Shown: positions 26,840 through 35,422 of the stretch, piece by piece
How positions within the stretch are numbered: the first letter of the stretch is position 1
How the letters are laid out: each line of letters opens with the position of its first letter
Assembly (NCBI GenBank): GCA_020722065.1
Contig: DYLK01000022.1
Coordinates: 1 to 35,422, forward strand
Length of the DNA stretch: 35,422 bases
Source: Melioribacter roseus
Lineage (GTDB): Bacteria > Bacteroidota > Ignavibacteria > Ignavibacteriales > Melioribacteraceae
Direction: 5' to 3'
Program-made: the position numbers and the translations under genes
The notes under the pieces: model-generated
What the model saw: the letters and a program-made list of their open reading frames with translations, nothing else
The model's database searches: none
Told to the model about the DNA's origin: nothing

Positions 26840-27475
26840 CTAGATCAACCCTTTTTTGTAAGCAATTGCAATTGCTTCGGATTGAGAGTGAGCGTGCAGT
26901 TTGTCGTAAATGTTTTTTATGTGATATCGAACTGTATGAACGCTAATAAATAATTCATCTGAAACTGTTTTATAGGTTTTTCCATCAGCAAGACTTTCGA
27001 GAATTAGCTTTTCTTTTGAAGATAATTGAATTTCATCTTGATTTTCAGATTTTACTTGCATTCGTAGTAATTGAATAACTTTTCCAGCAATTTCTGAATT
27101 CATTGGCGACCCACCATCGTAAACTTCTTTTACGGCTTCAATAATTTTTGTCGGTGATGATTTTTTTGATAAATACCCACTTGCTCCAGAAATTAAAGCA
27201 TCAAAAATTCGCTTGTCGTCTTCGTAAACTGTAAGCATAACAATTTTTAATTCTGGTAGGATTTTTCTTACTTCACGAACGCCTTCAATTCCCGAAATTC
27301 CTGGCAAATTGATATCGCTTATCAAAACATCGGGTTTTAATTCAGCAATTTCTGGAAGTAGCGATTCGTATTTATCGAATGTTTTCAAACACTTAAAACC
27401 GTCAGTTCCGTTCAAAAATGCTGCAATTCCTTCTCTGAAAATAGTATTATCTTCAACTATCACAATTTTTATCAT
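26840..27475 (-). CDS. NarL/FixJ-type response regulator
   Basis: A 211-residue protein. The receiver domain (1-~120) has acidic pair E8/D9, phospho-acceptor Asp54 (DVLISDINLPG), switch Thr82 and Lys104, all intact. The C-terminal LuxR-type helix-turn-helix (~145-211: LSSKEKLILESLADGKTYK and LFISVHTVRYHIKNIYDKL) binds DNA. The ATG follows the kinase stop codon directly, with no base between, so the pair is translationally coupled and the kinase is its cognate partner. Palindromic repeats upstream of the kinase are candidate binding sites. Confidence 0.96.
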   Translation of the reverse strand: MIKIVIVEDNTIFREGIAAFLNGTDGFKCLKTFDKYESLLPEIAELKPDVLISDINLPGISGIEGVREVRKILPELKIVMLTVYEDDKRIFDALISGASGYLSKKSSPTKIIEAVKEVYDGGSPMNSEIAGKVIQLLRMQVKSENQDEIQLSSKEKLILESLADGKTYKTVSDELFISVHTVRYHIKNIYDKLHAHSQSEAIAIAYKKGLI

Positions 27476-30349
27476 CTATTTTTTCCCAAATTTTCTTTTT
27501 AGTGGAATTTTAACTCTAATTTTAGTTCCTTTTTGATTTTCAGAAATAATCTCCAAAACTCCTTTTGCATGTTCAGCTCTCTTTTTCATATTGTATAAGC
27601 CATTCCCTTTTTCATATTCCGAATCAGAAATTCCTTTTCCATTGTCTGCAACTTCAATAATAAGATTATTAACATCAGCTTGAATCATAATTTCAATTTT
27701 GTTGCAATCGCAATATTTAATTGCATTATTAACTGCTTCTTTTACAATAAGATAGATGTGTTGGCGTTCTTCAAGTTGAAGTGTAATATTTTCAAGAAGT
27801 TGAAGTTGCGAAATTTTCAAATCAATTGAGGTATTTATCAAAAGTTCGTGATATGAATCTTTAATTCTCAAAATTAAATCTTTCAGAGTATCTTTTCTTG
27901 GGTTTACGAGCCAAATTATATCACTAAGTCTCTCGATAATTGTTCGAGTTTTTTCTGCAATTTCAGATAGACTTTTCTTGGTTTTGTCATCAGTTGTATT
28001 GTATTTAAGTATTTCACTCAAAATTGATATTTCGGAAAGTCCCGAACCGATTTCATCGTGCAAATCGGCTGAAATTGCTGTTCTAATTCGTTCAATTTTT
28101 AGCAAATTGATAATTCTTAAATAAACTATCGAAGAAATTATTGAACTGAGCAATAAGAAAATTATAAAATAGAACCACCACGAAAGCCAAAATGGTTGTG
28201 TGATTGAAAATTGAAAAGTTGCAGATTCTGACCATTCTCCCCATTCGTTTGCTGCTTTTACTTCAAAAACAAAATCACCACTTGGAAGATTTACATACTG
28301 CGAAAAATTATCTTTTGATTCAAACCATTTGTCCGACAAGCCGACAAGTCGATATTTATACTTTGTGTGAGTTGGTTCAAAATAATTAATGCCAGCAAAT
28401 TCTATTCTGATTGAATTTTGATTGTAAGCAAATTTATTAATATCTTTTTTGAAAGGCTCAATTTCGTAATCGTGAATACGAACAGAAGAAATAATTACGT
28501 TCATCTTATTGTGCGATTTGACAAACAAATCTGGATTAATTTTTGTAACACCCGCAATAGTTCCAACCCAAATATTTCCATTTTTGTCTTTGTAAATCGC
28601 ACCTTGATTGCATTCATTATTAGCTAAACCACTAATTTTGAACACTTTACGAATATTATAACTTCCATCTTCTTTTTGATTTATGATATTCAATCCGTTA
28701 TCGGTTATTGCATAAATATTACCTTTTCCGTCCTCTTCAAAACCGACAACTATATTATTTGATAAACCTTGTTTAATGCCTATTGTGTCGCGTTTTGTTT
28801 CTGAATAGCATTTGATAATTCCATATTCGTTTGTCCCAACATAGAGAATATTTTTACTCGATTCAAACATCGACCAGATTTTGCATTTTTCCATTCCTTT
28901 TTGAAACGGACGGAATTTCCCATCAACAAGTTGATAAACACCAGCGTTTTCAAAACTTATCAAAATCGTTCCATCTTTTCGTTTGAATGCTGATATAATA
29001 TTTTTTGATGGCAAGCCTACTTTTTCATCTAAAACACTAATAATCTTTTTGTTCTGAAAAACTACAATTCCACTTTTGTGCGTTACGAAAAACATTTTCC
29101 CATCATTTCCTTCAAGAATATACCAAACAGATTTGTTGGGGAAATTATTCACGATTTGCTTTTCGCCATTTGGATAAAAAATTGTTACTCCGTTATTGTG
29201 TGTGCCGTAATAAATTGTTCCATCTTCAGATTGATAAAGTGAAATTATCAGATTGTCGCTCAAATCTTTATTGGAGGTAGTTTTTATAAATTTGTTGTTT
29301 TTTAGTCTCGAAAGTCCTTCATCTGTCGTAAAAAGCATTTCACCATTTTTTAGTTCTTGAATTACCCAAACTGCATTATTTATTAAACCAGATTCTTCGT
29401 TGTACGTAACAATTACATCTGGGCGGTAAAAGAAAATTCCATCACCTTCGCTTAAAAATAGAATAAAATCGGCTTTCGGCTTAAATATTTTGGTAATAAA
29501 CTCATTTCGTAAGCCACTTTTTCTGTCCAAAACTTTAAATACTTCGTAATTTTTGATTATTGCAACGCCATCTCGAGTGGCAATATAAATTTTATCTTCA
29601 ATTTCAAGAATATCATTCACATAATTACTAGGAAGATTTTCATTTTCTGTGAGATAAATTTTTTCGCCATTCTTTTTTTGAATAACAATTCCAAAATTCT
29701 GCAAAGCGAAAATAATATCTCCATTTTCAGATTGATAAATATCAGTAATTGGTAGATTTTTTAGTTTTGGAGCGATTAAATATTCAGAAATTTTACCATT
29801 TTTTAGCTTAAAACATCCATCTTTCTGAGTTCCCAAAAAGTAAGTCCCTTCATCAATTTCTACAATCGAAATAAATTCTTTGTGCGAAATTTTAACTGGA
29901 ATTGCAAAAATTGAATTCTCGAACTTCCAAAGTCCATTTTCGCTTAAAATAAATAAATCATTATCTGATAAAGAAAAAACACGCATAAAACCAGATCTTA
30001 ATTCAATTGGAATATTATTTGGGACGAAGAATTTTTTTCTATCGAAGAGGATAATTCCGTTGTCGGTGCCAAAAACTAAATTATTCTTCGATTCAGCAAT
30101 TGAAGTAATAAAAAGCGAAGGCAACCCATCCGACCTAAAATAATTTTTAATTTTAACACTATTCCATTCCGAAAGTCCAGAAGCCGTTCCAAACCAAAAA
30201 ATTCCTTTGCTATCTTCAAAAGCAGTAATAACTTGCGAATAAGCAAGACCATCGTCAACGCTAATTTGTCGGCTAATTTCAATTTGAGAAAAAAGCAAAG
30301 AAGGAAGCATTATTGCAAAAAGAAGATAAACGGCAGATATTTTTTTCAT
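27476..30349 (-). CDS. Two-component-regulator-propeller sensor histidine kinase (HisKA_3)
   Basis: A 957-residue hybrid of a large periplasmic sensor and a NarX-type kinase. Start set at ATG 30349 (signal peptide MKKISAVYLLFAIMLPSLLFSQ); a TTG three codons upstream is less likely. Residues ~25-620 are beta-propeller repeats (DGLAYSQVITAFEDSKGIFWFG, and recurring DGTIYYGTHNNGV, DGKMFFVTHKSG and NGNIWVGTIAG), usually two seven-bladed propellers. A Y_Y_Y domain follows (~640-710, HTKYKYRLVGLSDKWFES), then a transmembrane helix (~715-740) and the HisKA_3 box ADLHDEIGSGLSE with phospho-acceptor His764. HATPase_c motifs are NNAIKYC (N box), DNGKGI and GNGLYNM. Such sensors detect glycans or other extracellular ligands; the ligand here is unknown. 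Divergent from the pseudo-receiver and GLUG genes. Confidence 0.95.
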   Translation of the reverse strand: MKKISAVYLLFAIMLPSLLFSQIEISRQISVDDGLAYSQVITAFEDSKGIFWFGTASGLSEWNSVKIKNYFRSDGLPSLFITSIAESKNNLVFGTDNGIILFDRKKFFVPNNIPIELRSGFMRVFSLSDNDLFILSENGLWKFENSIFAIPVKISHKEFISIVEIDEGTYFLGTQKDGCFKLKNGKISEYLIAPKLKNLPITDIYQSENGDIIFALQNFGIVIQKKNGEKIYLTENENLPSNYVNDILEIEDKIYIATRDGVAIIKNYEVFKVLDRKSGLRNEFITKIFKPKADFILFLSEGDGIFFYRPDVIVTYNEESGLINNAVWVIQELKNGEMLFTTDEGLSRLKNNKFIKTTSNKDLSDNLIISLYQSEDGTIYYGTHNNGVTIFYPNGEKQIVNNFPNKSVWYILEGNDGKMFFVTHKSGIVVFQNKKIISVLDEKVGLPSKNIISAFKRKDGTILISFENAGVYQLVDGKFRPFQKGMEKCKIWSMFESSKNILYVGTNEYGIIKCYSETKRDTIGIKQGLSNNIVVGFEEDGKGNIYAITDNGLNIINQKEDGSYNIRKVFKISGLANNECNQGAIYKDKNGNIWVGTIAGVTKINPDLFVKSHNKMNVIISSVRIHDYEIEPFKKDINKFAYNQNSIRIEFAGINYFEPTHTKYKYRLVGLSDKWFESKDNFSQYVNLPSGDFVFEVKAANEWGEWSESATFQFSITQPFWLSWWFYFIIFLLLSSIISSIVYLRIINLLKIERIRTAISADLHDEIGSGLSEISILSEILKYNTTDDKTKKSLSEIAEKTRTIIERLSDIIWLVNPRKDTLKDLILRIKDSYHELLINTSIDLKISQLQLLENITLQLEERQHIYLIVKEAVNNAIKYCDCNKIEIMIQADVNNLIIEVADNGKGISDSEYEKGNGLYNMKKRAEHAKGVLEIISENQKGTKIRVKIPLKRKFGKK

Positions 30350-30395
30350 TACCAACAAAATAAATTTTCAAATTACTTTGATAAAATAGCAAATC

Positions 30396-30525
30396 CACAA
30401 TTAATAGTTGTGATAATAAAATGAGTTAAAAACTATCACAATAGGTAGTTTTTTCAATCAGAATATGAAAGAACTACCACAATCGTTAGTTGATTGGCTG
30501 TGATGTACAAGATAGATTTACATCA
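30396..30525. promoter_or_regulatory. Cluster of operator-like palindromes between kinase and pseudo-receiver
   Basis: Two copies of a 20-bp imperfect palindrome, AACTATCACAATAGGTAGTT (30431-30450) and AACTACCACAATCGTTAGTT (30472-30491), match at 17 of 20 positions and start 41 bp apart, about four helical turns. Arms AACTA/TAGTT are perfect in both. A further palindrome, CACAATTAATAGTTGTG, lies at 30396-30412, and TGATGTA (30501-30507) pairs with TACATCA (30519-30525) closer to the plus-strand start. The first copy extends to AAAAACTA/TAGTTTTT, so a weak terminator is an alternative for that copy alone. Likely binding sites for the neighbouring regulator. Confidence 0.6.
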
Positions 30526-30539
30526 AAAAATTAAAAATT

Positions 30540-31010
30540 ATGACCATAATAATAATTGAACGAAAAATCACTTACTCGCAGGCATTAAAAGAATTGCTTT
30601 TAGTGTCTTTCCCAAAAGCAGAAATAGAATTGTATCGCGATTTTTCACAATTCAATTCCTTAGAAAAACTGACAAACGAAGTAGTAATTTTTGAGGCAAC
30701 TGAAGAAAACTCAACTATTTTGGCGGAATTTTTACATAAAAAAGCAAATCACAATCTAACTTTTATAGCTCTAACAGATACAGTTCTCGAACGATTTTCG
30801 CTCGAAACAATTTTAATGGGCGTTTCATCTATTTTAAGGAAATCGCAACCAATAGAAAATCTCTGCGAGGAAGTGAAGTTAATTTTACGAGGAAGCGAAG
30901 TTATTCCCAAAAATTTATTTAACGAAATCAAAGCAGAAATCAAAAAAACGAAATCTGAAAAAGAATCGCGTTTTTCAACTTTTTTAAAAAATATACTAAT
31001 CAAAAACTAA
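30540..31010 (+). CDS. Stand-alone pseudo-receiver protein (Glu at the phospho-Asp position)
   Basis: A 156-residue protein whose first ~125 residues follow the receiver-domain pattern of NarL-type regulators: TIIIIERK for beta1, TNEVVIFEATEEN for beta3, LTFIALTDT for beta4 and GVSSILRKSQPIENLCEEVK for beta5/alpha5. Aligned with the neighbouring regulator, its phospho-acceptor Asp54 becomes Glu52, while switch Thr (T79) and Lys (K101) remain at equivalent spacing; the acidic pair is E7/R8. No helix-turn-helix follows, only a basic tail (KAEIKKTKSEKESR). No phosphorylation is expected; Glu may mimic the phosphorylated state. It starts the plus-strand unit and ends 12 bp before the GLUG protein gene. 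Family assignment rests on pattern matching, not a search. Confidence 0.7.
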   Translation: MTIIIIERKITYSQALKELLLVSFPKAEIELYRDFSQFNSLEKLTNEVVIFEATEENSTILAEFLHKKANHNLTFIALTDTVLERFSLETILMGVSSILRKSQPIENLCEEVKLILRGSEVIPKNLFNEIKAEIKKTKSEKESRFSTFLKNILIKN

Positions 31011-31022
31011 TAGGAGTTCAAA

Positions 31023-34000
31023 ATGAAGAAAAATACAATTTTTTCATTTTTTTTAATCTCGATAATTTTATCCTCGAGTTCAATTTTTGCACAAACTGCA
31101 ACCCCACCGGCTGGAAGTGGAACAAGTGGCGATCCATATCAAATTACAAGTCTTGATAACTTGTATTGGATGAGCCAAAATACAGCAAGTTCTGCAGGAA
31201 AATATTACACACAAATAAACGATATCGATGCTTCGGCAACTTCTGGTTGGTTTAGCGGAGCAGGTTTTGTACCGATTGGTACTTCATCTTCTAATTTTAA
31301 CGGCTATTATGATGGACAAGGGTATGAAATTTCAAATCTTTACATCAACAGAGTTTCCACTGATAACGTAGGTTTGTTTGGTTACACAAATTCAAGTACT
31401 TATTGGTTAAAAAATATTAAATTAACTAATGCTGATATTAGCGGGCGAAATTCTGTTGGTGGAATTATTGGATATGACGGTTATGGTTTAATTGATGGTT
31501 GCTCAGTTACTGGTCAAATTATTGGAGCAGTTAATTATGTTGGTGGAATAGTTGGAAGAAGTGTTAGTGGCTCAATTACAAATAGCTTTTCAACAGCAAC
31601 AATTTCTGGGAATGATTATGTTGGTGGAATTGCTGGTTCGATATATGCCGCAACAACAGCGCCAATTATAGAAAAATGCTATTATGCAGGAACAAGTATT
31701 GCCTCAACAAACGAAATGGCGGGTGGTATTTGTGGAGCTAATTCTGGAGGAATTGTTCGTCAATCTTTTGTCGCTTCAGGCACAATTACTAGTGACCATG
31801 GATATGCTGGTGGATTAGTTGGAACAAATTCAGGAAGTGCTTCAAAAATTGAAAATTGTTATTCTAAAGCTAATGTGGTAGAAACTTCAGAAAGTACCAG
31901 CCCAACGAATTATGGAGCCTTTGTCGGCTATAATAATTCTGGAAGAATTGAGTATTGCTATTCAACTGGTTCAGTAACTTTTTCAAGTTCAACAACGGCT
32001 GATGCTGGATTTATTGGGTTAGACTATACCGGAACATTAACAAGTAATTTTTGGGATAATGATGTTTCCAATCAATCAACAGCAGTTGGTGCAACAAGTG
32101 CAACTACTGCGGAAATGAAAAACTCGGCTACTTTTATATCTGCTGGTTGGGATTTTGTAACCGAAACAACAAACGGCACAAATAATTATTGGGATGATGA
32201 TGTAACGGAATCAGTAAACGGCGGTTATATGCCACTTGCTTGGCAAGCCGGAACAGACGGCGTTTTGTATGGAACACCAAGTGGAACTGGAACAAGCGGT
32301 GACCCATATTTAATAGCAACTCTCGATAATTTAATTTGGATTACACAAAACTCAGAAAGATGGGACAAATATTTTAAGCAAACTACAAGTATTAATGCTT
32401 CTTCAACTTCAACGTTAAATAGTAATGCTGGACTTGTCCCAATTGGAAACTCAACAACTCCATTTACAGGTTTTTATAATGGACAAAATTATTCAATTAC
32501 AGGTCTCACAATTAATCGTCCCGCAACAGATTATGTTGGTTTGTTCGGCTATACAAGTTTAGTTGCCGAAATATCAAATGTAAACTTAGTAGCAGTCTCA
32601 ATTACAGGACATGATTTTGTTGGTGGTTTAGTTGGTTCTGCTAATGGTAATTTAGTTACAAATTCTAGAGTTTTTGGTGGAACAGGAATTACAGGAAATA
32701 ATTACACTGGTGGTTTGATAGGGGCAAATTCAGATAATACTGTTACAAATTCATATTCACAGATTGCTGCAACTGGTGTCCTTTATGTTGGTGGATTAAT
32801 AGGTTGGGAATTTGATTCAATAATTCGTGCAAATTATGCAACTGGTAGTGTTTCTTCTTCTTCAAATGATGCTGGTGGTTTAATTGGATATGCAGAATCA
32901 AGTATAATTTCAAATTGCTATTCAAAAGGTAATGTTACAAGAAGTACGGGAAGTTCAACAAATTTTGGTGCTTTTATCGGGGAAGTAACTTCTGCTACTG
33001 CTATTTCAAATTCATATTCAATCGGTTCGGTTTTTTATACTGGAATAGGTGCTCCAGCAGACAAAGGCTTTGTGGGATATGATAATACTACTGACGGAGT
33101 AAATACTTACACAAATAATTTTTGGGATAATGATGCATCATCTCAATCAACTGCAACCGGTGCAACAAGCAAAACAACGGCGGAAATGAAAGATTATAGA
33201 ACTTACACTGCTGCCGGCTGGGATTTTAACTACGAAACAGCAAACGGCTCAAATGATTATTGGGATGATGACCAACTTGGAACAGCAAATAGTTATTATC
33301 CAATTCTTTATTGGGAAACTGGTGCAAATGATGAAACATTCGGACAACCAAGTTCGGGTGATGGAACCTCGGGAACTCCATATCAAATATCAACATTGGA
33401 TAATCTTTATTGGCTTTCAAAAAATACAAGCGTTTGGAATAAATATTTTGTACAAACACAAAATATTGACGCCACAACTTCATCAACTTGGCACAATGGT
33501 TTGGGTATCGAACCAATTGGGAATGCAACGACTGCATTTTCTGGAAATTGGACTGGATTATCTGATGAAGTCTATATTATTTCTGGACTTGATATAAACA
33601 GACCAAATGAAGATAATGTGGGTCTTTTCGGTAAAACTAACGGTGCTACAATTAAATATTTAGAAATAAGTCATTCCGATATTATAGGAGATGAGTTTGT
33701 TGGTTCATTGGTTGGAAACGCATATACTTCAACAAATATTCAATATTGTTTTTCCACCGATGGAACCGTTAACGGAAATCTTTCAACGGGAGGGTTAGTA
33801 GGAGCAAATTATAATGTGAATATACTTAATTCAAAAAATACTTCGAATGTTACGGGCAATAATCAAGAAACTGGAGGTTTAGTTGGATATTTTTCAGGAG
33901 CTTCAACAAGTTATAAAATTTCAGAATGTAGTAATACTGGTACGGTTTCAGGAACTTCCTATGTAGGTGGTTTGGCCGGACGAAATGGTGGCTCAGCAAT

Positions 34001-35048
34001 TGAAAAATCCTACTCTACTGGAAATGTTTCTGGAAGTCTTTTCTTAGTTGGAGGTTTAGTTGGAGATAACAACTCTGCAATAACCAATTGCTATTCAAAA
34101 GGAAATGTTACTCGCGGTTCGGGAGCAACTGACGATAGATATGGTAGCTTTGCTGGAGTAGCTCGTAATGGTTCTAGTTTTAGTTACTGCTATTCAACAG
34201 GAAGTGTAACATATACAGATGCTGCAAATCCAACAACCAAAGGCTTTGCAGGTAAAGATGAAGGTGGAACTTTTACTGCAAACTTTTTTGATACTGGAAC
34301 ATCATTGCAATCAACAGGAACAGGAGCAACTGCAAAAACCACAGCAGAAATGAAAACAAACTCAACTTATGCAGATTGGGATGTAAATATTTGGAATAGG
34401 GATGACGCATTTAATAGTGGTTATCCATATTTAGATTGGCAAAATTCTGATGGAACACCACTTCCAGTTGAACTAACCTCATTTACCGCTGCTTCGACAG
34501 GCTCAGCAGCCGTTGTGCTAAATTGGGAAACCGCAACAGAAGTAAATAACTACGGATTTGAAATAGAACGGGCGGTTACTTCGACAAGCTCAGTAACCGA
34601 ATGGGAAAAAGTAGGTTTTGTTGAAGGACACGGAAATAGCAATTCACCTAAAAATTATACTTTTACCGACAATTCGACTCCCCTCAATGTAAGTACAGTT
34701 TCATATAGACTTAAACAAATAGACATAGATGGAAATTACAAATATTCAGATGTTGTTGAAATAAACATTGAAAATGAATTACCAACTAAATTCGAGTTAT
34801 TCCAAAACTATCCAAATCCGTTTAATCCAAGTACAACAATCTCGTTTGCTTTACCAAAATCTGGATTTGTAACGCTAAAAGTATATAATGCTATTGGAGA
34901 AGAAATTGAAGAATTGGTGAACAGAGAAATGAATGCTGGTATTCAAAATATAAATTTTGATGCAACAAATTTAAGCTCAGGAATTTATTTCTTCAAATTG
35001 CAAAGTGGCAGTTTTTCTGAAACAAAGAAAATGATTTTGATTAAATAA
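31023..35048 (+). CDS. Giant three-module GLUG-repeat surface protein with T9SS sorting tail
   Basis: A 1341-residue exported protein with a signal peptide (KNTIFSFFLISIILSSSSIFAQ without the first residues) and AGGAG ahead of ATG 31023. Three homologous modules start at about residues 31, 421 and 779, each opening G.GTSG.PYQI..LDNLYW, followed by a VPIGTSSSNFNGYYDGQG-type segment, then a string of GLUG-like units (VGGIIG, VGGIVG, YAGGLVG, VGGLAG) with N.YS.G.V rungs, and closing with FWDND.S.QST..GAT and TTAEMK. GLUG units form beta-solenoids found in adhesins and cell-surface proteins. From residue ~1146 (PLPVELTSFTA) comes the FN3-like stalk common in this phylum, then the type-A sorting domain from ~1258 (QNYPNPFNPSTTISFALP to KKMILIK). 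Cell-surface attachment by T9SS is expected. Probably co-transcribed with the pseudo-receiver. Confidence 0.93.
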   Translation: MKKNTIFSFFLISIILSSSSIFAQTATPPAGSGTSGDPYQITSLDNLYWMSQNTASSAGKYYTQINDIDASATSGWFSGAGFVPIGTSSSNFNGYYDGQGYEISNLYINRVSTDNVGLFGYTNSSTYWLKNIKLTNADISGRNSVGGIIGYDGYGLIDGCSVTGQIIGAVNYVGGIVGRSVSGSITNSFSTATISGNDYVGGIAGSIYAATTAPIIEKCYYAGTSIASTNEMAGGICGANSGGIVRQSFVASGTITSDHGYAGGLVGTNSGSASKIENCYSKANVVETSESTSPTNYGAFVGYNNSGRIEYCYSTGSVTFSSSTTADAGFIGLDYTGTLTSNFWDNDVSNQSTAVGATSATTAEMKNSATFISAGWDFVTETTNGTNNYWDDDVTESVNGGYMPLAWQAGTDGVLYGTPSGTGTSGDPYLIATLDNLIWITQNSERWDKYFKQTTSINASSTSTLNSNAGLVPIGNSTTPFTGFYNGQNYSITGLTINRPATDYVGLFGYTSLVAEISNVNLVAVSITGHDFVGGLVGSANGNLVTNSRVFGGTGITGNNYTGGLIGANSDNTVTNSYSQIAATGVLYVGGLIGWEFDSIIRANYATGSVSSSSNDAGGLIGYAESSIISNCYSKGNVTRSTGSSTNFGAFIGEVTSATAISNSYSIGSVFYTGIGAPADKGFVGYDNTTDGVNTYTNNFWDNDASSQSTATGATSKTTAEMKDYRTYTAAGWDFNYETANGSNDYWDDDQLGTANSYYPILYWETGANDETFGQPSSGDGTSGTPYQISTLDNLYWLSKNTSVWNKYFVQTQNIDATTSSTWHNGLGIEPIGNATTAFSGNWTGLSDEVYIISGLDINRPNEDNVGLFGKTNGATIKYLEISHSDIIGDEFVGSLVGNAYTSTNIQYCFSTDGTVNGNLSTGGLVGANYNVNILNSKNTSNVTGNNQETGGLVGYFSGASTSYKISECSNTGTVSGTSYVGGLAGRNGGSAIEKSYSTGNVSGSLFLVGGLVGDNNSAITNCYSKGNVTRGSGATDDRYGSFAGVARNGSSFSYCYSTGSVTYTDAANPTTKGFAGKDEGGTFTANFFDTGTSLQSTGTGATAKTTAEMKTNSTYADWDVNIWNRDDAFNSGYPYLDWQNSDGTPLPVELTSFTAASTGSAAVVLNWETATEVNNYGFEIERAVTSTSSVTEWEKVGFVEGHGNSNSPKNYTFTDNSTPLNVSTVSYRLKQIDIDGNYKYSDVVEINIENELPTKFELFQNYPNPFNPSTTISFALPKSGFVTLKVYNAIGEEIEELVNREMNAGIQNINFDATNLSSGIYFFKLQSGSFSETKKMILIK
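34488..34510. repeat. Hairpin element copy A inside the GLUG gene
   Basis: GCTGCT (34488-34493), loop TCGACAGGCTC (34494-34504), AGCAGC (34505-34510). The loop differs by one base from copy B 87 bp downstream, while the stem is different but still perfectly complementary. It encodes the TAASTGSAAV segment in frame. Confidence 0.65.
34573..34599. repeat. Hairpin element copy B inside the GLUG gene
   Basis: CGGTTACT (34573-34580), loop TCGACAAGCTC (34581-34591), AGTAACCG (34592-34599): a perfect 8-bp stem. The core CTTCGACAAGCTCAG is one I recall as dispersed in Bacteroidota and Ignavibacteriota genomes. It encodes RAVTSTSSVTEW in frame between beta-strands of the stalk domain. Confidence 0.7.
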
Positions 35049-35066
35049 TTAATTATTCACAAATAA

Positions 35067-35099
35067 AAACCTCGAATAATTACAAATTCGAGGTTTTTT
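35067..35099 (+). terminator. Strong intrinsic terminator after the GLUG gene
   Basis: AAACCTCGAA (35067-35076) pairs perfectly with TTCGAGGTTT (35087-35096) around a 10-nt loop, running into TTTTTT (35094-35099). It lies 18 bp after the GLUG stop and only 15 bp before the next ATG, so the next gene is either read through or has a promoter inside this region. Confidence 0.85.
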
Positions 35100-35114
35100 A
35101 ACAAAGGAGAAACA

Positions 35115-35422
35115 ATGTTAAAAATCAAATCAACTCTTGTTATCTTATTTTTCTTATCCACAATAATTTCGATCGCTCAGCCATCAAAATCGGAAATGAC
35201 AAAGAAAATTGATAATGAATACGAAAACATCAGTATTGAACTTTTGGGAAATGGCGGAATTGACCAAGAATGGGAAAATGGAATTTATGTAGAGAATTTT
35301 TATCAACCATTTAGAATAAAACAAACCACTGAATACAAGGGTGTAAATTTACTTTATAAAGCAAGTTTGAAATATCAAAAAAGTAGTTCTGGGTGGGTTT
35401 TTAAGCAATTTACTGTTGGTTC
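35115..35422 (+). CDS. Exported protein of unknown function, 5' part only
   Basis: The reading frame is open from ATG 35115 to the window end (102 codons), so the gene is truncated by the window. AAGGAGA at an ideal distance supports the start. Residues 1-22 (MLKIKSTLVILFFLSTIISI, cleavage after AQ) form a signal peptide. The visible mature part (SKSEMTKKIDNEYENISIEL, then NGGIDQEWENGIYVENFYQP, then WVFKQFTVG) is polar with alternating aromatic residues, suggesting a small beta-rich domain. I do not recognise a family. It lies directly downstream of the GLUG gene after a strong terminator. Confidence 0.75.
   Translation, partial: MLKIKSTLVILFFLSTIISIAQPSKSEMTKKIDNEYENISIELLGNGGIDQEWENGIYVENFYQPFRIKQTTEYKGVNLLYKASLKYQKSSSGWVFKQFTVG

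Follow-up and report, generated by a model that had tools for sequence, protein, structure and literature searches.

Hybrid two-component systems (HTCS) of Bacteroides carry a propeller-type sensor together with kinase and regulator in one protein. Related arrangements are described in the literature. In CmrRST of C. difficile, a two-component system and a receiver protein without the phosphoacceptor aspartate are encoded at one locus, and a model has been put forward in which the system acts via changed expression of the pseudo-receiver (PMC12632262). The atypical regulators BldM and WhiI work through heterodimers, WhiI acting at promoters with BldM (PMC4125116). PorXY ties two-component control to the type IX secretion system (T9SS): the T9SS motor is the proposed target of the CheY-like domain of PorX (PMC10951265), PorX has a PglZ-type domain and helps regulate the genes of the T9SS machinery (PMC10951265, PMC7712824), and PorA, a protein with a T9SS C-terminal domain, is proposed to relay a surface signal to the kinase pathway (PMC7712824). 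A review of 2025 counts the ways in which bacterial pseudo-receivers are switched on and off among the major unknowns (PMC12632262). The locus described here is a four-gene cassette of propeller kinase, NarL-type regulator, pseudo-receiver and T9SS surface protein in Melioribacter roseus. It is located on a stretch of 35,422 nucleotides (contig DYLK01000022.1, positions 1 to 35,422), referred to as the window, in a genome of 2.38 Mb.

CmrR and CmrT are described as OmpR-family regulators (PMC12632262), whereas the regulator of the window is NarL-type; moreover, the pseudo-receiver of the window has no output domain, and its partner gene encodes a T9SS surface protein. Unlike WhiI, the atypical partner has no helix-turn-helix (HTH) domain and is accompanied by an adjacent kinase gene. 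In contrast to PorXY, a single cargo operon would be concerned, and no PglZ domain was found by Pfam in the small protein. The sensor is of the type known from HTCS, but kinase and regulator are two separate genes, the HTH is LuxR-type, and control is proposed for a T9SS protein instead of a polysaccharide locus. The fold of the GLUG module is shared with the GLUG region of IgA1 proteases and with PDB entry 3n6z, but a protease domain was not found in the cargo. The parts of the cassette are of known kinds; the arrangement is undescribed in the open-access literature searched, which is not the whole literature.

The preferred reading, with a probability of about 0.5, is that a dedicated two-component system drives an operon of pseudo-receiver and surface protein, with feedback by the pseudo-receiver. 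The first-pass annotation had proposed a dedicated sensor-to-surface-protein system. The dedicated pairing is supported by the adjacency of the genes, by twin palindromes in three genomes and by an agreement between recognition helix and site; the GLUG protein, on the other hand, is not the constant part of the cassette.

The genes were searched for with the small protein as BLAST query in 97 genomes, with a four-sequence profile of the small protein in 391 genomes of the class, and with the same profile in 19 genomes, 15 of them new. Together these searches covered 79 genomes of the family, some via single-sequence BLAST alone. BLAST gave matches in seven of the 97 genomes, the window genome included, and a frame of similar length in three relatives, denoted G021, G045 and G002. 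Weak matches in G069 and G079, which are full regulators (L025, L026), and in G066 (L007) were not counted. Only four genomes of the class scored above 200 bits with the profile, the next best listed being G015 and G061 at 42 bits; in the set of 19, nothing exceeded 31 bits. Most of the weaker matches listed are frames of about 200 aa or longer and resemble full regulators. A wide occurrence of the pseudo-receiver within the class was rejected on these counts (4/391).

The gene order (kinase, regulator, small receiver, large secreted protein) is the same in all four strong-match genomes (4/79 of the family), which span three genera (g1, g18, g19; G002 belongs to the genus of the window genome), and order, open frame, glutamate and lysine are retained in all of them. 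The expected adjacency of pseudo-receiver and large secreted-protein gene to the kinase pair, set beforehand as a refutation test, was thus found in 3/3 of the other genomes. The facing layout is present in the window, but since all four genes lie on one strand in G021, G045 and G002, the face-to-face order is an exception peculiar to the window genome. Pseudo-receiver and cargo frames are separated by 12 bp in the window, 4 bp in G045 and 14 bp in G002, and overlap by 4 in G021.

The kinase contains Reg_prop, Y_Y_Y, HisKA_3 (with its histidine) and HATPase_c, the domains of a propeller histidine kinase. Response_reg (PF00072) and GerE (PF00196), with the aspartate in place, assign the regulator to the NarL/FixJ response regulators. 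The coupling of these two genes, claimed earlier, was confirmed by the Pfam domains and by a kinase stop codon that immediately precedes the regulator start codon; the plus-strand order of a pseudo-receiver followed by a GLUG protein with a T9SS C-terminal domain was confirmed by Pfam and the open reading frames. The regulator is the sole GerE match of the window genome, and the propeller part of the kinase is matched by three reading frames there. Identity to the window proteins in the cassette relatives is 65-71% for the regulator and 44-46% for the kinase. Another two of the 79 genomes have a regulator of the cassette kind (at least 65%): G023, whose contig stops 124 bp past the regulator, and G410.

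The small protein gave no Pfam match in any of the four genomes (E 0.001 for the window, 0.01 for the other three), PF00072 included, and is therefore a divergent case that was identified by profile and fold. A profile from the four homologues matches full-length regulators (best 2.5e-10). The AlphaFold2 model, with a mean predicted local distance difference test score (pLDDT) of 75, has a receiver fold; its best PDB match is RcsB (E 1.7e-5), and the CsgD receiver is at rank 5. Alignments place glutamate at the phosphoacceptor position in 4/4 homologues. Profile, fold and glutamate bear out the label of pseudo-receiver given in the first-pass annotation. The conserved lysine and a threonine or serine near the conserved place are retained, the first acidic pair only partly. 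The C-terminal tail is variable and was modelled with low confidence. Identity to the pseudo-receiver of the window is about 25-32% in G002, G021 and G045.

Upstream of the small-receiver gene, twin 18-bp palindromes are found in three genomes, at a spacing of 41 bp in the window, 40 bp in G045 and 41 bp in G002. The gap had been called palindrome-rich. This holds for the twin sites, with two exact matches to the 18-bp pattern in the gap and no shuffle of the window (0/100) giving two, the pattern having been drawn from the window sites and their relatives; as plain inverted repeats the palindromes are less striking. The best inverted repeat of the gap was reached by 3 of 300 shuffles in the window, 52 in G045, 9 in G002, 126 in G021 and 22 in G023. 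In the window this repeat spans both sites, and neither in the window nor in G021 does it coincide with a named site. Across 24 genomes, the strict pattern has seven exact matches, six of them at three cassettes and one in G410; both exact matches of the window genome are in the cassette gap. The view that the gap palindromes are merely terminators was rejected, as the twins precede the start codon at a fixed spacing in the window, G045 and G002.

The consensus of the -7 element in Bacteroidetes is TAnnTTTG. In the window and G002, an element TAnnTTTA is found at a distance of 31 bp from the site 2 centre; if it is correctly identified in these two, the twin sites could be placed at about -42 and -83 relative to the start site so predicted. 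The imperfect third palindrome, CCACAATTAATAGTTGTGA, is not conserved when the gap is aligned with those of G045 and G002; it could serve the divergent kinase promoter. Elsewhere in G045, away from the cassette (contig C73, 21736-21823), three similar ACTATC-N6-GATAGT palindromes lie within 88 bp.

The recognition helix of regulators such as NarL reads the DNA. Regulators with the helix VRYHIKNIY (window, G002, G045, G410) are paired with ACTAYC-N6-GRTAGT-like sites, and those with VRYYIKRIY (G021, G023) with a common 18-mer, CCTACTCAAAGTGATAGG, just past the regulator gene, which aligns with site 1 of the other cassettes. The helix of G021 and G023 differs at positions 185 (H185Y) and 188 (N188R), among other places. 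Two paralogous regulators of G021 and G023 carry the His/Asn helix, and behind their genes are looser first-type palindromes (2-3 mismatches). A joint change of helix and site would be expected of a real operator; the agreement covers six genomes, and common descent may account for it in G021 and G023.

The cargo of the window matches Glug (8e-40) and Por_Secre_tail (1.8e-11), the latter being the T9SS sorting domain. It is the sole gene with GLUG matches in the window genome, in which the T9SS C-terminal domain has 48 matches, 46 of them over the cut-off. The model of GLUG module 1 is rich in short strands and, judged from PDB matches, probably a beta-solenoid; the best match is 3n6z, a GLUG-type protein of Bacteroides ovatus (Foldseek E 3.8e-8), followed by IgA1 proteases. 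A role as protease was rejected, as Pfam and structure matches gave no protease domain; of the metalloprotease domain of IgA1 proteases (M26), Pfam gave only an M26_N match below its cut-off in the GLUG part. The cargo of G045 is 70% identical to that of the window over 1291 aligned positions, and that of G002 is a shorter GLUG protein. GLUG as the constant partner was rejected because G021 has a protein with FG-GAP repeats, alike only over the last 225 positions; the circuit would accordingly be tied to a T9SS cargo and not to GLUG itself. The cargo is predicted to be exported by the T9SS and is probably an adhesin or matrix protein. Positions of all features are summarized in Table 1.

Table 1. 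Features of the cassette and its intergenic gap (positions in the window)
Feature	Position	Strand	Remarks
NarL/LuxR-type response regulator	26840..27475	-	211 aa; D54 retained; Pfam, alignment, genome search
Propeller histidine kinase	27476..30358	-	960 aa from TTG; in-frame ATG at 30349; H-box ISADLHDEIGSGLSEISIL; Pfam, alignment
Third palindrome, imperfect, CCACAATTAATAGTTGTGA	30395..30413	.	kinase side of gap; read from sequence
Palindromic site 1, ACTATCACAATAGGTAGT	30432..30449	+	proposed regulator operator; conserved in G045, G002
Palindromic site 2, ACTACCACAATCGTTAGT	30473..30490	+	41 bp from site 1; proposed regulator operator; conserved in G045, G002
-7-like element, TAGATTTA	30513..30520	+	31 bp from site 2 centre
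Pseudo-receiver	30540..31010	+	156 aa; no output domain; E52 at phosphoacceptor place; K101 retained
AGGAG, Shine-Dalgarno-like	31012..31016	+	between pseudo-receiver stop and GLUG start; sequence
T9SS cargo (GLUG protein)	31023..35048	+	1341 aa; start resembles a signal peptide by eye; three GLUG modules; sorting domain at the C-terminus
GLUG module 1	31092..32252	+	modelled, mean pLDDT 91
GLUG module 2	~32274-33323		
GLUG module 3	~33345-34442		
Por_Secre_tail	34809..35036	+	T9SS sorting domain

According to the preferred reading, the propeller kinase would sense a signal outside the cytoplasm and phosphorylate the NarL-type regulator, as expected from the protein families. Upstream of the pseudo-receiver gene, a regulator dimer would then bind the two palindromes, which are separated by about four turns of the helix, and would activate the two-gene operon of pseudo-receiver and large surface protein; the latter would be a three-module beta-solenoid exported by the T9SS. 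That the regulator controls this operon is considered very probable from sequence evidence. The pseudo-receiver would be made along with the cargo and would be unphosphorylated, no phosphate being expected because glutamate occupies the place of the aspartate. Most likely it would feed back on the kinase or regulator of its own system, by contacts between receivers or with the kinase, and thereby set the amount of cargo; for this action on its own system the odds are judged to be even, and a negative rather than a positive sign of the feedback is suggested tentatively, at somewhat below even odds. If the reading is true, the cassette would be a case in which T9SS control addresses one particular cargo and not the machinery. 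It also offers a small test system with a single kinase, regulator, pseudo-receiver and cargo and two candidate operators, along with related loci whose receivers keep the aspartate and a natural variant of the DNA-reading helix.

Several observations weigh against this reading. G410 keeps kinase and regulator, yet has neither a pseudo-receiver nor a T9SS gene adjoining them and no pseudo-receiver above 28 bits elsewhere. Its exact site (L090:1396-1413) is 182 bp upstream of a frame (L090:1-1213), presumably of a malic enzyme, and 8.4 kb from the cassette-type regulator; as the lone one among the 24 genomes outside the cassettes, it could be due to chance. With one mismatch allowed, the pattern is not enriched, with 23 matches in the 24 genomes versus 28 in the reversed control, and in the window genome only half of its four matches are in the cassette gap. 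A looser pattern for both site types gave 17 matches in the 79 genomes versus 41 for the control, and a one-mismatch site of the other type in G021 falls within another reading frame. The -7-like element is unmatched at the given distance in G045 and is present in two of the three genomes only. The rapid evolution of the pseudo-receiver would equally fit a weakly constrained protein. Finally, the T9SS domain of the cargo is whole only in the window and G021, since the contig of G045 ends before it and in G002 it is cut by the contig (42 bits with a custom profile; no Pfam match).

Feedback is ranked first because the pseudo-receiver sits behind the proposed operator and resembles models of partner binding (PMC12632262). 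A plainer model in the same review is that the system just alters the amount of a constitutively active pseudo-receiver (PMC12632262). In second place is a coupling of cargo production to secretion, in which the pseudo-receiver would bind the T9SS motor or a different component of the envelope, as the CheY-like domain of PorX does, with export adapting whenever this cargo is produced. It is considered unlikely, and owes its rank to the fact that the receiver accompanies the cargo and that the PorX CheY domain of F. johnsoniae interacts with GldL (PMC10951265); PorX is also reported to bind PorL (PMC5005315). The receiver is directly 5' of the cargo gene in all four cassettes, both genes are downstream of the proposed operator in the window, G045 and G002, and hand-picked stretches of the pseudo-receiver tail are positively charged in 4/4. 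Such coupling is less easily reconciled with the lack of a PglZ or other Pfam match in the pseudo-receiver and with the many T9SS genes that have no receiver neighbour (0/19 within 3 kb in stretches of G047).

Less probable still is that the pseudo-receiver serves as a phosphorylation-independent heterodimer partner that strengthens or retargets the regulator, by positive feedback or coincidence detection, as in the WhiI-BldM precedent (PMC4125116). Glutamate in place of aspartate can partly mimic phosphorylation in many regulators, a property disproved for some pseudo-receivers, and heterodimers of receiver and pseudo-receiver are proposed for CmrRST (PMC12632262). The retained lysine and nearby threonine or serine would suit such a partner, but the pseudo-receiver has no DNA-binding domain, and a heterodimer with a single HTH points to inhibition rather than to retargeting. 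The least probable explanation, thought to be very unlikely, is inherited linkage without joint function, the kinase pair controlling other genes and the pseudo-receiver being a decaying remnant of tandem regulators. Tandem regulators with a weaker second HTH do occur in the family (L218, L219, L220), and in G410 the two output genes are missing beside the kinase pair; against such decay, order, open frame, glutamate and lysine are kept in four genomes of three genera, the twin sites are kept in three genomes, and the site varies with the recognition helix.

In the wider family, 26 other GLUG loci from 16 of the 79 genomes were surveyed, together with some loci picked for receiver matches. A regulator, a small receiver and a T9SS or GLUG gene are in series in six further loci: L244, L247, L248 (G418), L255 (G014), L089 (G015) and L222 (G048). 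The small receivers of all six keep the aspartate. L089 and L222 were fetched for their receiver matches, so the six are not an unbiased sample. The contig of L222 has no kinase, L244 has one extra frame between receiver and T9SS gene, and the GLUG frame of L255 is short and without a visible T9SS domain. L252 has kinase, regulator and small receiver, with no T9SS gene after the receiver in the stretch examined; like L221 and L223, it contains a standalone small receiver outside such series. The gaps before several of these receivers carry palindromes of differing sequence with uneven support: the best repeat was reached by 7 of 300 shuffles in L244, 16 in L247, 2 in L248, 0 in L255, 21 in L222, 41 in L252 and 48 in L089. 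A NarL-type regulator is within 3 kb of 8/28 GLUG genes versus 0/19 T9SS genes (20 stretches of G047 alone); without the three cassette loci the former count is 6/25, which makes the comparison weak support. It is conceivable, if doubtful, that a principle of one cargo, one circuit applies in Melioribacteraceae, in which individual T9SS surface proteins are each equipped with a kinase, a NarL-type regulator and a palindromic operator of their own, plus a single-domain receiver that is produced with the cargo and reports or limits its export, by phosphate (Asp) in some lineages and without it (Glu) here.

G418 holds three separate series of kinase, regulator, small receiver and T9SS gene (L244, L247, L248), with a different gap palindrome in each. 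Tandem regulators are found behind a propeller kinase at L218:8862-10260, L219:7166-8588 and L220:6785-8210; the second of each pair scores lower against the regulator profile, and such tandems are a possible route to a pseudo-receiver. In the window genome, a propeller and Y_Y_Y sensor is fused to an adenylate/guanylate cyclase domain (L027:4343-7342). Beside it is a small protein whose C-terminal part resembles a T9SS domain (L027:3343-4254); perhaps this pair represents the same idea using a cyclic nucleotide.

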